The position numbers were made by a program, and so were the translations under genes. The notes below the pieces were generated by a model. The model saw only the letters and a list, made by a program, of their open reading frames with translations. It was not told the origin of the DNA and searched no databases. From positions 62,001 through 126,000 of the forward strand of contig CAMDCN010000020.1 of the NCBI GenBank assembly GCA_945890485.1: DNA of 64,000 nt. The letters are read 5' to 3'. This DNA is from Candidatus Sulfopaludibacter sp. SbA3. GTDB lineage: Bacteria; Acidobacteriota; Terriglobia; Bryobacterales; Bryobacteraceae. Positions 15,375 through 19,285 of the stretch are shown here, piece after piece; the stretch's first letter is position 1; the number at the start of each line of letters is the position of its first letter.

Positions 15375-16187
15375 ATGTTAATTCCATTTGCAAAGGCGCA
15401 CGGCGCCAAGAATGACTTTCTGCTCACTTGGGCCGATGAGGCTCCGGAGGGGGACCTCTCCGCGGTGGCGGTGGCGATCTGCGAGCGAAACACAGGCATC
15501 GGAGCGGACGGATGGCTGGTCTGCGACCGGCCGGCGGACGGTATGCGGATCCGCTTGTTCAATCCGGACGGCGGCGAAGTGGAAATGTCGGGAAATGGCA
15601 CGCGCTGCGCGGCGGCATGGGCGATGGCCAACGGGTATGAGCCTGAAGCGATCAAGATCCGGACCGGCGGTGGCGACAAGCAGCTGCGCCGGTTGCAGCG
15701 GCAGGGCCCGCGGTTCGTCTTTGAAATGAACATGGGGCGGCCGGTGATTGAGGCCGAACGGGAGGCGTTGGTTGTCGGCGAGGAGATCGTCAACTGCACA
15801 ATTCTGAACGTGGGGAACCCCCAGTGCGCCGTGTTCGTCGAGGACTTTAATTTTGATTGGGCCGCGATGGGCGCCGCGATTGAGCGGGATCCGCGATTCC
15901 CGAACCGGACGAACGTTTCGTTCGTAAAGCATGTGGACGGGTTGACGCTGGACGTCCGGTTTTTTGAGCGGGGCGTGGGGGTTACGAACAGTTCGGGGAC
16001 TGGTTCGACCGGGGCGGCGGTGGCCGCGATCGCACGCGGGATTGTCGGTCGCTCGGTGACGGTACAAACTCCGGCGGGTCCACTGGAGTTCCATTGGCCC
16101 ACTGCCGATGACGATGTTGTGATGGTTGGCCCGGCGGAGTTGATCGGGACCGGGGTCTATTACTTTCAGGAAGGATATGACGCATAA
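15375..16187 (+). CDS. dapF: Diaminopimelate epimerase homologue with altered catalytic residues
   Basis: A 270-residue protein with the two-domain DapF fold. Family landmarks are HG..NDF near the start, Asn63 in FNPDG, the GNG turn, ERG at 198-200, and GTG in the second half. In the family, meso-DAP is made by a pair of cysteines lying just before GNG and GTG. Here both are serine: MSGNG (Ser72) and SSGTG (Ser207). The histidine of GNPH is glutamine (GNPQ, Gln150). Glu198 is kept. So it is either a serine-based epimerase variant or a homologue with another role. It lies in a tight run with the glycosyltransferase and the nucleotide-sugar dehydrogenase, which starts 11 bases before its end. 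Confidence 0.8.
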   Translation: MLIPFAKAHGAKNDFLLTWADEAPEGDLSAVAVAICERNTGIGADGWLVCDRPADGMRIRLFNPDGGEVEMSGNGTRCAAAWAMANGYEPEAIKIRTGGGDKQLRRLQRQGPRFVFEMNMGRPVIEAEREALVVGEEIVNCTILNVGNPQCAVFVEDFNFDWAAMGAAIERDPRFPNRTNVSFVKHVDGLTLDVRFFERGVGVTNSSGTGSTGAAVAAIARGIVGRSVTVQTPAGPLEFHWPTADDDVVMVGPAELIGTGVYYFQEGYDA

Positions 16188-17481
16188 AGAGGTACTCGCG
16201 GAGAAGATCAGCAGCCGGAAGGCGGTTGCGGGAATTGTCGGCTTGGGCTACGTGGGTTTGCCGCTGGCGATGGAGTTCGGCCGGGCCGGATTTCAGGTGC
16301 TCGGCTTCGACGTCCAGCAAGAGAAGATTGATCTCCTGAATCAGGGGACCTCCTACATTCAGGACGTATCCAGCGACCTGCTGGCCCCTTTGGTGGCGAG
16401 TGGGCAGTTTAGTGCAACAAACGACTTCTCGAAGCTCGCCGAGATGGACACGATCAACATTTGTGTGCCGACGCCGCTGCGGAAAACCAAAGACCCGGAT
16501 ATGAGTTTCATCGTGAACTCGACCGAGCAGATCGCCAAGTATCTGCGGCCGGGCACGCTGGTGATTTTGGAATCGACGACGTATCCGGGGACTACGGACG
16601 AATTGGTGCTTCCGATTCTTGAAAAGTCCGGGCTGAAGGTGGGTGAGGACTTTTTCGTCTGTTTCTCGCCGGAGCGTGTGGATCCGGGCAACGCGAAGTA
16701 TCAGACGCGGAACATCCCGAAAGTGGTGGGCGGGATCACGCCGGCTTGTACGGAACTGGGTGCGCTGTTCTATGCCCAATCGCTCGACACCGTGATTCCG
16801 GTGACGTCGACGAGCGTGGCTGAGATGGTGAAGTTACTCGAAAACACGTTCCGGATGATCAACATCGGTCTCGTGAACGAGATGGCCATGATGTGCGACC
16901 GGATGGGGATCAATGTTTGGGAAGTGATTGATGCGGCGGCGACGAAACCGTTTGGCTTCATGCCTTTCTATCCGGGGCCGGGGCTGGGGGGGCACTGCAT
17001 TCCGGTGGATCCTTTCTATCTGGCGTGGAAGACCCGGCAGCAGGGCATCGAGGCGCGCTTCATTGACCTGGCGGGTTACATCAACGGGCAGATGCCGCAC
17101 TTCGTCGTCGATAAGGTGCAGCATGCGTTGAACGAGAACCGGAAGCCGCTGCGGGATTCAAAGATTCACGTCCTCGGCGTCGCTTACAAGAAGAACATCG
17201 AGGACGTGCGGGAGTCTCCGGCACTGGACATTATTCATGTCCTGAAGCAACGGGGCGCGGTGTTGAGCTACAGCGATCCGTTCGTGCCGCACTTGCGAAT
17301 TGATGGTTTGGAGATGGACTCCGAGGACGTGCTTCCATCGTGCCAGGCGGCGGACTGCGTCGTGCTGATTACGGACCATACGGCGTTCGACCGGGATGCG
17401 ATTCTGGCGGCGTCGCCAGTGGTCGTGGACACGCGGAATGCCTTCAAGGGAATGACTTCCGAAAAGCTCTTCCGGCTTTAG
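16177..17481 (+). CDS. Nucleotide-sugar dehydrogenase (UDP-N-acetyl-glucosamine/mannosamine 6-dehydrogenase type)
   Basis: A 434-residue NAD-dependent enzyme that oxidises the C6 of a UDP-sugar to a uronic acid. The Rossmann motif GLGYVG is at 22-27, the middle domain has KLLENTFR with Lys219, and the catalytic cysteine is Cys274 in GGHCIPVDP. The C-terminal UDP-binding domain is complete. The GGHCIPVDP form and the length fit the WbpA/WecC/TviB branch rather than UDP-glucose dehydrogenase. It makes precursors for surface polysaccharide, consistent with the glycosyltransferase upstream. Its stop overlaps the convergent methyltransferase stop (TTAG). Confidence 0.93.
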   Translation: MTHKEVLAEKISSRKAVAGIVGLGYVGLPLAMEFGRAGFQVLGFDVQQEKIDLLNQGTSYIQDVSSDLLAPLVASGQFSATNDFSKLAEMDTINICVPTPLRKTKDPDMSFIVNSTEQIAKYLRPGTLVILESTTYPGTTDELVLPILEKSGLKVGEDFFVCFSPERVDPGNAKYQTRNIPKVVGGITPACTELGALFYAQSLDTVIPVTSTSVAEMVKLLENTFRMINIGLVNEMAMMCDRMGINVWEVIDAAATKPFGFMPFYPGPGLGGHCIPVDPFYLAWKTRQQGIEARFIDLAGYINGQMPHFVVDKVQHALNENRKPLRDSKIHVLGVAYKKNIEDVRESPALDIIHVLKQRGAVLSYSDPFVPHLRIDGLEMDSEDVLPSCQAADCVVLITDHTAFDRDAILAASPVVVDTRNAFKGMTSEKLFRL

Positions 17482-18848
17482 GCGATCATCAGGCCCATCC
17501 GGTAGAGTGATGTCAGAATCGCTTCTCCGGCGCCGAGACTATCCGTGGCGCGGGTTCCGTCCAGGAGTTGGAGGAACTCGCGCGCAGACGGTTCGTCGAA
17601 CTGAACCTGGGTGTGGAGCAGCGTAGTCAGACGCGGGCCGGCGGAGGCTTGGAGACGCGCGAGGGGGCTGGCGATGGGTCGATGCGCCGGCGTGTGGGCT
17701 ACCGGGAGATCGAAGCTCCGCAGGAAGACGAGCGAGGCGGCGGCGAGAGCGAGGATCTGGTCCAGCACGGTGGGGTCCGGCGTGGTTGGCAGCAGGTTGG
17801 CGAGTGGCTGCGCCTGCGGCCACACCGCCTCCAGCCGGTGCAGGATGGCGAGAAGCTCGGGATGATTCAGCTCGACTTGTCCGGGGGCTCTATCGTTGCG
17901 GAAAATCTCGGCGCCGTTAGCCGAACGGCTGACGAAACGGAGCGGGGAGGCGAGGTTGAGCTTGGGCAGATGCCGCGCGAAGTTGCCGCGCTCGATGGGG
18001 AGGTCGGCGCGGCAGAGGAGCGTGCGGCGGAATCCCTGAAACGTGTGGAGATCGAGCGCTTGTTGAAAGGAGATCTCGTCCGGCTGGGCGAGTTCCTCGC
18101 GAGAGTGGGCGGGACAGAGGAGGGGGCGGAGTCGGCTTTCGGCGAGGAACTGGAGGCCAAAAGGGGCGGCGCGTTCGATAAAGTCGGCGAAGTAGAAGCA
18201 GTGGTAGGCGTCGCCGAGTTCGTCGTGGTAGGTGACGTTCTCGTCGCGAGCGTCGAGGCGCTGGATCTCGGAGTCGAGGATGGACTGCCAGAGCGCGTGG
18301 GTAGCGCGTTGGCGGACAGCGGCGAGGTGTTCTTTTCCCTTGGCGACGGTGCCCTCGCCGGGATGGCGGAGGATACGGCGGGTGGCGTCGCGGAGATGTC
18401 CTTCGGGATAGGTGTTGTAGCTGGCGTAGACGACACCGTTGGCCGTTAGATGGCGCTGGCAGAGGGCGAAGAAGGCGTCAAGGACAATGGGCGGAACCCA
18501 GGAGCAAAAGCCGTGAGCAACGATGTAGTCGAAGGGCCCGAGGTGGGCAGGAAAATCGAGAATATCGAGGGCATGCAAGTCCACGTTGGTGAGACCCAGG
18601 CGGGCGATGGTGGCTTGGCCCATTTCGACGGGACGGGCCGCGAGATCGATCCCGACGAAATGGGCGCCGGGAAGGGCGACGGCTAGGGGAATGACGTTGC
18701 TGCCATCGCCACAGCCCACGTCGAGGACTCGGCAGGAGCCGGTGGGTGGCCGCAGACCGTGGAGGGTGGCGATGGAGGCAAGTCGATCGGGATGGGTGTC
18801 CTGGAAGGCCTTGCTGGGATAGAGGACCTGATCATAGGTGCTGGACAT
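17478..18848 (-). CDS. SAM-dependent methyltransferase with methyltransferase regulatory domain
   Basis: I start at the ATG at 18848 (MSSTYDQVLYPS). The longer frame adds 26 residues without family character. It is about 456 residues. The N-terminal class I methyltransferase domain has motif I VLDVGCGDGSN at about 41-51 and acidic D in GIDLAARPV. It is followed by a regulatory domain of the type found C-terminal to such enzymes (PF10119-like) and a helical tail. Family members accompany surface or peptide modification, but the substrate is unknown. Confidence 0.88.
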   Translation of the reverse strand: MSSTYDQVLYPSKAFQDTHPDRLASIATLHGLRPPTGSCRVLDVGCGDGSNVIPLAVALPGAHFVGIDLAARPVEMGQATIARLGLTNVDLHALDILDFPAHLGPFDYIVAHGFCSWVPPIVLDAFFALCQRHLTANGVVYASYNTYPEGHLRDATRRILRHPGEGTVAKGKEHLAAVRQRATHALWQSILDSEIQRLDARDENVTYHDELGDAYHCFYFADFIERAAPFGLQFLAESRLRPLLCPAHSREELAQPDEISFQQALDLHTFQGFRRTLLCRADLPIERGNFARHLPKLNLASPLRFVSRSANGAEIFRNDRAPGQVELNHPELLAILHRLEAVWPQAQPLANLLPTTPDPTVLDQILALAAASLVFLRSFDLPVAHTPAHRPIASPLARLQASAGPRLTTLLHTQVQFDEPSAREFLQLLDGTRATDSLGAGEAILTSLYRMGLMIA

Positions 18849-18904
18849 CGAAAGTGTGAGTTTAGACGATCCGGGCCCGGGATCGCAAAAGGCACTCGCC
18901 GAGG

Positions 18905-19285
18905 TCAATGGAGGTAGGTGACCCATTGCCGGATGATGGCTTGGAAGGCAGGGCCGTGAGTGTCGATTTCACTCTGACTACGGAACTTGACCGACGCCCG
19001 ATCGTGGCTGAGCCACTGGAGCAGTTTGCTGGGGTCGTCGATGAGGAGTCGAGTCTTGATGTCCGGGCGGACCTTGGCGTCGAGATGCAGAATAGTCTGT
19101 ACGGCTTTGGTGTCCCGGACATTGACCGTTGCGAAGTACTGCCCGACTTTGAAGCTCGGCGCTTTCCATTTGATGCCTTCGCCAATGGCTGGGCTGGCAT
19201 TGCGGATGAGTTCGACGACAGCTGCAAATTCGGATTTCAGCGGATGGTCGAGTTGGCGGAGGAACTCCTCGACGGCGGGATCCAC
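18905..19285 (-). CDS. DUF1801 (YdhG-like) small protein
   Basis: A 126-residue cytoplasmic protein matching the DUF1801 fold. It opens with VEEFLRQLDHP and contains the conserved IKWKAPSF segment at about 37-44, and the family commonly lies beside AHSA1/ArsR modules. It begins right after the stop of the AHSA1-like gene, in the same direction, so it is the last gene of a three-gene unit with that gene and the ArsR regulator. No catalytic activity is established for the family. Confidence 0.85.
   Translation of the reverse strand: MDPAVEEFLRQLDHPLKSEFAAVVELIRNASPAIGEGIKWKAPSFKVGQYFATVNVRDTKAVQTILHLDAKVRPDIKTRLLIDDPSKLLQWLSHDRASVKFRSQSEIDTHGPAFQAIIRQWVTYLH

Follow-up and report, generated by a model that had tools for sequence, protein, structure and literature searches.

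Diaminopimelate (DAP) epimerase DapF serves as a model of the thiolate/thiol pair, which removes an alpha-proton of pKa ~29 (PMC12039745; this and all other papers given here by PMC number are cited from part of their text). In cysteine enzymes helix N-termini and backbone amides reportedly lower the thiol pKa, and in the structure of Anabaena DapF no basic residue lies closer than 4 Å to the catalytic sulphurs (PMC12039745); domain closure keeps water out (PMC11602996). The catalytic thiols are alkylated by covalent DapF inhibitors (PMC12039745), and in C. glutamicum the enzyme is switched by a disulphide between both catalytic cysteines (PMC5296763). The PROSITE signature of DapF, as quoted in PMC8225329, is C-[GI]-N-[GA]-x-R, and the histidine of the GNPH motif was called essential in the paper on Chlamydia DapF (PMC5885031), a view of its catalytic role from which the Anabaena paper (PMC12039745) departs. 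Cys-to-Ser mutants retained <0.1% of activity in PddB and traces of activity in M. tuberculosis DapF, both according to PMC8225329, and the activity of HisR was greatly reduced in the same way (PMC11602996). H. influenzae DapF with C73S or C217S (2Q9H, 2Q9J) has serine at the same positions as the protein described below, but these are single laboratory mutants by their entry titles, whereas our protein carries a natural double serine.

Natural catalytic serines have been described in the proline racemase superfamily, which has the wider fold in common with our protein (its entries are among the PDB matches) but forms another family with other substrates. Serine replaces the first cysteine in the Ser/Cys 4-hydroxyproline 2-epimerase, where it works on one face of the fold, and in the Ser/Thr trans-3-hydroxyproline dehydratase, and some clusters of the superfamily lack one or both cysteines; a Ser/Ser epimerase is not described in the part of PMC4113996 that reports them. 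In an aspartate/glutamate racemase of another fold threonine stands in place of one cysteine (PMC8142540). The bifunctional DapF/glutamate racemase of Chlamydia (NF038284; PMC5885031) has the DapF fold and belongs to a genome without recognised MurI, as is the case here; unlike our protein, it keeps C72, C207, the histidine and the glutamate and has a remodelled pocket. No report of a natural Ser/Ser DapF was found in the open-licence papers searched.

The window, i.e. the whole analysed stretch of 64,000 nucleotides from Candidatus Sulfopaludibacter sp. SbA3 (Bryobacteraceae), contains a gene of this kind. Its features are given below, the contacts of asparagines following the ligand list in the cited part of PMC12039745.

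15375..16187, + strand: dapF-like gene, Ser/Ser variant of diaminopimelate epimerase; open reading frame of 270 aa, assigned by Pfam, TIGR00652, AlphaFold and PDB fold match
15411..15413, + strand: Asn13, contact of the proximal amine
15561..15563, + strand: Asn63, distal DAP contact
15588..15590, + strand: Ser72, codon TCG, equivalent to catalytic Cys75 of Anabaena DapF, immediately before model helix 73-85
15816..15818, + strand: Asn148, distal DAP contact
15822..15824, + strand: Gln150, codon CAG, in place of the GNPH histidine, variable among Ser/Ser proteins
15912..15914, + strand: Asn180, distal DAP contact
15960..15962, + strand: Phe196, large hydrophobic residue accompanying Ser207, Thr or Ser in acidobacterial Cys/Cys proteins
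15966..15971, + strand: Glu198-Arg199, counterparts of Glu215-Arg216 in Anabaena, which contact DAP at its distal end; invariant in the 77 Ser/Ser rows
15990..15995, + strand: Ser206-Ser207, codons AGT TCG, immediately before model helix 208-220

The only family matched by the protein at E ≤ 0.001 is PF01678 (143.3 bits, cut-off 34.7), and it passes the NCBI equivalog TIGR00652 for DapF (180.8 bits, cut-off 114.65). It is not a member of the bifunctional family NF038284 (52.8 bits, cut-off 350) and gave no match to PF05544 of the proline racemase superfamily at E ≤ 0.001. Among 17 distinct related PDB sequences (E ≤ 0.001) 16 are named diaminopimelate epimerase and one O-ureidoserine racemase. 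The AlphaFold model, built from 50 sequences with a mean pLDDT of 94.2, has the two-domain DapF fold; the closest PDB fold is 9mro, Anabaena DapF with a DAP analogue (E 7.6e-29, TMq 0.87), and all top 26 fold matches are either DapF (two of them as E. coli RppH-DapF complexes) or O-ureidoserine racemase. With canonical DapF (TIGR00652; Anabaena 9MRO, Arabidopsis 3EJX, H. influenzae 1GQZ) the protein shares fold, length, helix-capping catalytic positions, DAP contacts, GNG and GTG loops and the place in the pathway. It differs from them by serines instead of both catalytic cysteines and by glutamine instead of the GNPH histidine, while in most Ser/Ser members the residue preceding the second catalytic one is also Ser, not Ala, and residue 196 is large and hydrophobic.

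The protein has the motifs E-M-S-G-N-G-T-R-C, G-N-P-Q and N-S-S-G-T-G-S, in this order. Ser72 and Ser207 (codon TCG, 15993-15995, equivalent to catalytic Cys224 in the Anabaena enzyme) occupy in the model the same helix N-cap places as the Anabaena cysteines, and all residues listed as holding DAP, N13, N63, N148, N180, E198 (codon GAG, 15966-15968), R199 and T209, are present (places and list from PMC12039745). Translation and motifs thus agree with the original prediction, which had named Ser72, Ser207, Gln150 and Glu198 and noted the retained GNG and GTG loops. Since it has neither of the two catalytic cysteines and departs from the PROSITE signature, we class the protein as a DapF variant and not as a canonical member.

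The genome from which the window was taken (7.1 Mb in 35 contigs, 97.43% complete) has no other protein above the PF01678 cut-off. Among three matches listed, two are halves of the same protein and the third has 12.5 bits. The gene is therefore the only dapF found in its genome, a case that the original prediction had considered, and a hidden Cys/Cys paralogue was rejected on the basis of this genome-wide PF01678 search. The window protein matched 189 of 200 Bryobacteraceae genomes, and the 12 listed genomes of its genus (its own and 11 others) have a single match each. Typing of 90 loci from these 189 genomes (30 from the family search plus 60 further regions) gave Ser/Ser/Gln/Glu in every case, separately named assemblies included, which rules out an error of sequencing or assembly; such an error was to be suspected if close homologues had cysteines, and they have none.

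Twenty-five Bryobacteraceae genomes with a weak, double or missing match were searched again with TIGR00652, and 15 of them matched. An added Cys/Cys copy (L258) was found in only one of the 25, G025 (92% complete, 4% contaminated), and looks to be of foreign origin. In G016 (62% complete) there is a DapF piece of 36 residues, non-acidobacterial in appearance when judged by eye, and G196 has a Ser/Ser/His copy instead. The other matched genomes of this set have either Ser/Ser proteins or pieces ending at contig ends or Ns, with serine at any catalytic site covered; a few of the cut pieces span neither site. Ten of the 25 had no TIGR00652 match. Four of these ten are at least 90% complete (G093, 98%; G171, 96%; G059, 91%; G176, 90%), for which we have no explanation beyond incompleteness or loss.

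The phylum was sampled with 139 Acidobacteriota genomes, each at least 90% complete, and TIGR00652 matches were registered in 135. Besides the genome of the window 128 were typed, while G210, G229, G247, G311, G317 and G334 matched and were left untyped. These 128 genomes, all outside Bryobacteraceae, comprise 72 with Ser/Ser (G293 among them, entered so in spite of a second weak match), 51 with Cys/Cys, three with Cys72/Ser207 and two with both kinds. By family (57 without Bryobacteraceae), 32 have only Ser/Ser, 21 only Cys/Cys, three Cys/Ser, and one is mixed. Thus, the Ser/Ser DapF is an old and real variant that is widely kept, not an artefact.

A tree of 104 rows was built without columns 72, 150 and 207 and after removal of five short sequences; its outgroups were 10 Cys/Cys proteins from the best 60 of 105 matched plasmid records, two PDB chains and stray loci L088 and L093. 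The main Ser/Ser clade (53 rows, SH-aLRT 99) groups (SH-aLRT 98) with 12 canonical Cys/Cys rows from other phyla, namely Paenibacillus, Priestia, Acetoanaerobium, Ilyobacter, Bacteroides, Citrobacter, Rhizobium, Methylobacterium, Streptomyces, Anabaena, Arabidopsis and L088. The acidobacterial Cys/Cys rows, mostly with GVPH, form a separate branch together with a Neochlamydia protein and the Bacteroidetes locus L093. Within this branch lie a second Ser/Ser protein, L183 of family f3, and the Cys72/Ser207 proteins L119, L165 and L196. One more Ser/Ser protein, L115, is an additional copy, its family having Cys/Cys as well, and is placed apart with poor support. At minimum the tree requires three changes at site 72 and five at site 207. 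Because of these numbers and of the positions of L183 and L115, the double change from Cys to Ser probably arose at least twice in Acidobacteriota, and the Cys72/Ser207 proteins, as natural halfway forms, may mark a possible path to Ser/Ser.

Two families deviate in their own ways. Family f22 (L115, L143, L145, L214-L221, L223) has a divergent Cys/Cys DapF-like protein that does not reach the cut-off of TIGR00652; a Ser/Ser/His protein occurs in addition in three genomes of this family (G257, G267, G293). In family f26 (L206, L210-L212) the proteins are Ser/Ser, and the glycine following the second catalytic serine is also replaced (S-S-T-G-S), which falls in the alpha-carboxylate-binding loop.

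In 150 Ser/Ser genes, near copies included, site 72 is encoded by TCN in 143 and by AGC in seven, three of the latter being extra copies of family f22; at site 207 the numbers are 142 for TCN and eight for AGY. Since the two codon sets are more than one step apart, serine must have been kept or regained across the jump. The median dN/dS of 12 same-genus genes was 0.11 (from the 58 of 66 pairs whose dS fell between 0 and 2.5), and by this measure dapF is under purifying selection in the genus. Codon data and dN/dS together rule out decay, in agreement with the original prediction that the substitutions are not random. Its further suggestion of a joint change at three of the four key residues was not supported: among 77 Ser/Ser rows residue 150 is Gln in 36, His in 33, Val in four, Asn in three and Phe in one, and Gln150 occurs in some Cys/Cys proteins too. 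Judging by these alignments, the change of His150 is separate from the cysteine changes.

As to the DAP contacts, N13, N63, N180, E198 and R199 do not vary among the 77 Ser/Ser rows, and N148 is lacking in one; residue 208 is Gly in 74 and Ser in three, residue 209 Thr in 69 and Ser in eight. No more than 16 of the 51 Cys/Cys rows have N148. All 75 main Ser/Ser rows have a large hydrophobic residue 196 (70 with Phe or Ile, five with Val, Leu or Met); it is Ile or Phe in three of three Cys/Ser rows, Val in L183 and Ile in L115, whereas the 37 acidobacterial Cys/Cys rows all have Thr or Ser there; the 14 other Cys/Cys rows (12 outgroups, L088 and L093) have Val in 10 and Thr in four. A larger non-polar residue 196 accompanying Ser207 in separate lineages, few as the cases are, looks like a repeated companion change. 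Ser206 occurs in 56 of the 75 main Ser/Ser rows, in all three Cys/Ser rows and in L183, versus 9 of 37 acidobacterial Cys/Cys and 0 of 14 outgroup rows. At position 102 a basic residue (Lys or Arg) occurs in 70 of the 75 main Ser/Ser rows, while ~12% of Cys/Cys rows are basic there.

The genome of the window encodes a pathway in which an epimerase has its place. On contig 4 one cluster contains lysC (484.4 bits, cut-off 455), dapB (133.9, cut-off 122), dapA (329.7, cut-off 206.15) and dapD (298.6 with NF008808, above 204, but 180.7 with TIGR00965, below 375.4); the DapE/ArgE-like M20 deacylase alongside, adjoining lysC, is below DapE cut-offs, and succinyl-DAP aminotransferase (DapC) was not identified in this genome. 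Genes lysA (504.9 bits) and murE (483.8 bits; 527.9 with the DAP-ligase equivalog, cut-off 373) are present. MurE has at 408 the motif DNPR, which we take to be a sign of meso-DAP; it was found in 26 of 30 MurE loci of other Acidobacteriota, the frame being not recovered in the remaining four. Meso-DAP dehydrogenase (Ddh, profile DAPDH_C) was absent from all 66 genomes searched, while the same profile matched 2 of 14 control genomes. DapL (TIGR03542) exceeded its cut-off in 2 of 66 genomes, the one with the window not among them, and the DapL route was rejected there: the four best aminotransferases are below DapL cut-offs and dapD was found instead. All other known routes to meso-DAP run through LL-DAP. 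With lysC, dapB, dapA, dapD, lysA and a DNPR-type murE present and Ddh absent, the known routes thus require an LL-DAP epimerase.

No second candidate for this step appeared among the Ddh, proline racemase and Asp/Glu racemase families of the genome. The proline-racemase-family protein L302 (C15:115969-116835) scores best as a 4-hydroxyproline epimerase, though under the cut-offs, and adjoins dapA-like and FAD-oxidase-like genes (named by eye). It retains CGHG and CGTG, so that the loss of cysteines is not general to the DapF-type fold in this genome. The sole Asp/Glu-racemase-family protein found there (C6:250476-250952) has 44 bits. Judged from gene content, the known routes yield LL-DAP, and the DapF of the window alone is available to convert it into meso-DAP. 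Lysine synthesis may end differently in the Ser/Ser and Cys/Cys groups: LysA passes its cut-off in 38 of the 50 Ser/Ser genomes, in three of the 12 with Cys/Cys and in none of the three with Cys/Ser (this count and that for MurI below cover 65 of the 66 genomes, excluding G257, which has both kinds). We found no record of meso-DAP or another DAP isomer in the acidobacterial wall in the open-licence papers searched.

Because the gene is not decaying, is the only dapF found and stands where the known routes need an epimerase, serine-based epimerisation of DAP is the most economical reading. We estimate at about 0.72 the probability that the window gene encodes a true DAP epimerase in which serine has taken the place of both cysteines, a replacement that probably happened on two or more occasions within Acidobacteriota. 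As the sole DAP epimerase, it would turn LL-DAP from the succinylase branch (LysC, DapA, DapB, DapD) into meso-DAP, supplying LysA for lysine and MurE for peptidoglycan. The DapF fold and DAP pocket would be unchanged, and Ser72 and Ser207 would take over from the cysteines in capping the two helices that face each other. The surroundings of one serine, together with water-excluding domain closure, would raise its basicity, so that it could abstract the alpha-proton on one face, while its partner would reprotonate the opposite face (1,1-proton transfer); both the action of the pair as acid and base and the activation of serine we infer from this arrangement. For this, helix N-termini and backbone amides would need to work on a hydroxyl instead of a thiol, and that is far more difficult. 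The hydroxyl of serine is a far weaker acid. A slow enzyme may suffice, or residues 196 and 206 may retune the pocket. No obvious acid or base activating the serines was identified; only position 102 is newly basic, and it is not so in L183, L115 or the Cys/Ser forms.

The near or substantial loss of activity in single Cys-to-Ser mutants of homologues implies that either the site has been retuned or another enzyme makes meso-DAP. In the latter case the Ser/Ser protein would bind DAP without epimerising it, as a regulator or as a relic retained in another role, and an unrelated, unrecognised enzyme would do the work. A second role of DapF does exist in E. coli, where it is a partner of RppH (complex structure 6d13). 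Against this stand the conserved DAP pocket and both conserved serines, as a relic would hardly keep serine through changes of codon set; neither Ddh nor L302, nor the low-scoring Asp/Glu-racemase-family protein, offers a replacement, and we regard such a division of labour as unlikely. Counted against a serine-based epimerase itself are 12 Ser/Ser genomes, of 50, whose LysA stays below the cut-off, the failure to find pathway genes near dapF in the flanks searched, the four nearly complete Bryobacteraceae genomes without a DapF match and the lack of any meso-DAP record for an acidobacterial wall in the papers searched.

A changed or widened substrate, for example glutamate besides DAP, is suggested by MurI (TIGR00067), which had no match in the genome of the window or in three other Bryobacteraceae tested, and by the bifunctional DapF of Chlamydia (PMC5885031). 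Over the wider set MurI passes its cut-off in 25 of the 50 Ser/Ser genomes, in 11 of the 12 with Cys/Cys and in none of the three with Cys/Ser, from which L119, L165 and L196 come; for serine-bearing versus Cys/Cys genomes Fisher p is 0.008 with kinship ignored. Yet half of the Ser/Ser genomes do have MurI, in G242 even ~1.5 kb from the Ser/Ser dapF (by coordinates), and a D-amino-acid transaminase could supply D-glutamate. Moreover, the distal DAP ligands, which glutamate would use differently, are kept almost invariably, unlike the remodelled pocket of Chlamydia, so that this option appears quite improbable. Least credible, and in our opinion very improbable, is catalysis by PLP, metal, substrate assistance or Lys/Arg102, with the serines acting only as helix caps and oxyanion ligands. 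It would be favoured by the weak acidity of serine, by the newly basic position 102 in most of the main Ser/Ser rows and by the published PLP-dependent reaction of a DapF protein (PMC5885031); but residue 102 is not basic in the independent serine-bearing forms, and both sites have retained serine although a helix could be capped by other residues as well.

We consider it fairly probable that much of Acidobacteriota makes meso-DAP through a serine-pair DapF, which would have arisen at least twice, possibly by way of Cys72/Ser207 and with a companion change at 196. Such a thiol-free 1,1-proton-transfer epimerase should be unaffected by oxidation and by thiol-directed DapF inhibitors. Insensitivity of the serine pair to the disulphide possible in Cys/Cys DapF may be a side benefit, and possibly a reason for the change. 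A natural Ser/Ser DapF that is the sole copy in much of a phylum would show cysteine to be dispensable, and the Cys/Cys, Cys/Ser and Ser/Ser homologues make up a ready set for testing what activates the base. Genomes annotated as having 'DapF' without the residues that the taught mechanism needs are also a warning.

As for the surroundings of the gene, homologues of six DAP-pathway proteins from the genome of the window were absent near dapF in 190 loci (flanks at most 1.5-6 kb); one weak DapL match with 24% identity was registered in L146, and an aminotransferase lies ~1.4 kb from the Ser/Ser dapF in G250 (by coordinates). In the window itself a gene of the UDP-glucose/GDP-mannose dehydrogenase family (16177-17481) adjoins a methyltransferase gene on the minus strand (17478-18926), whose product has a methyltransferase regulatory domain and a weak match to the PKMT winged helix.
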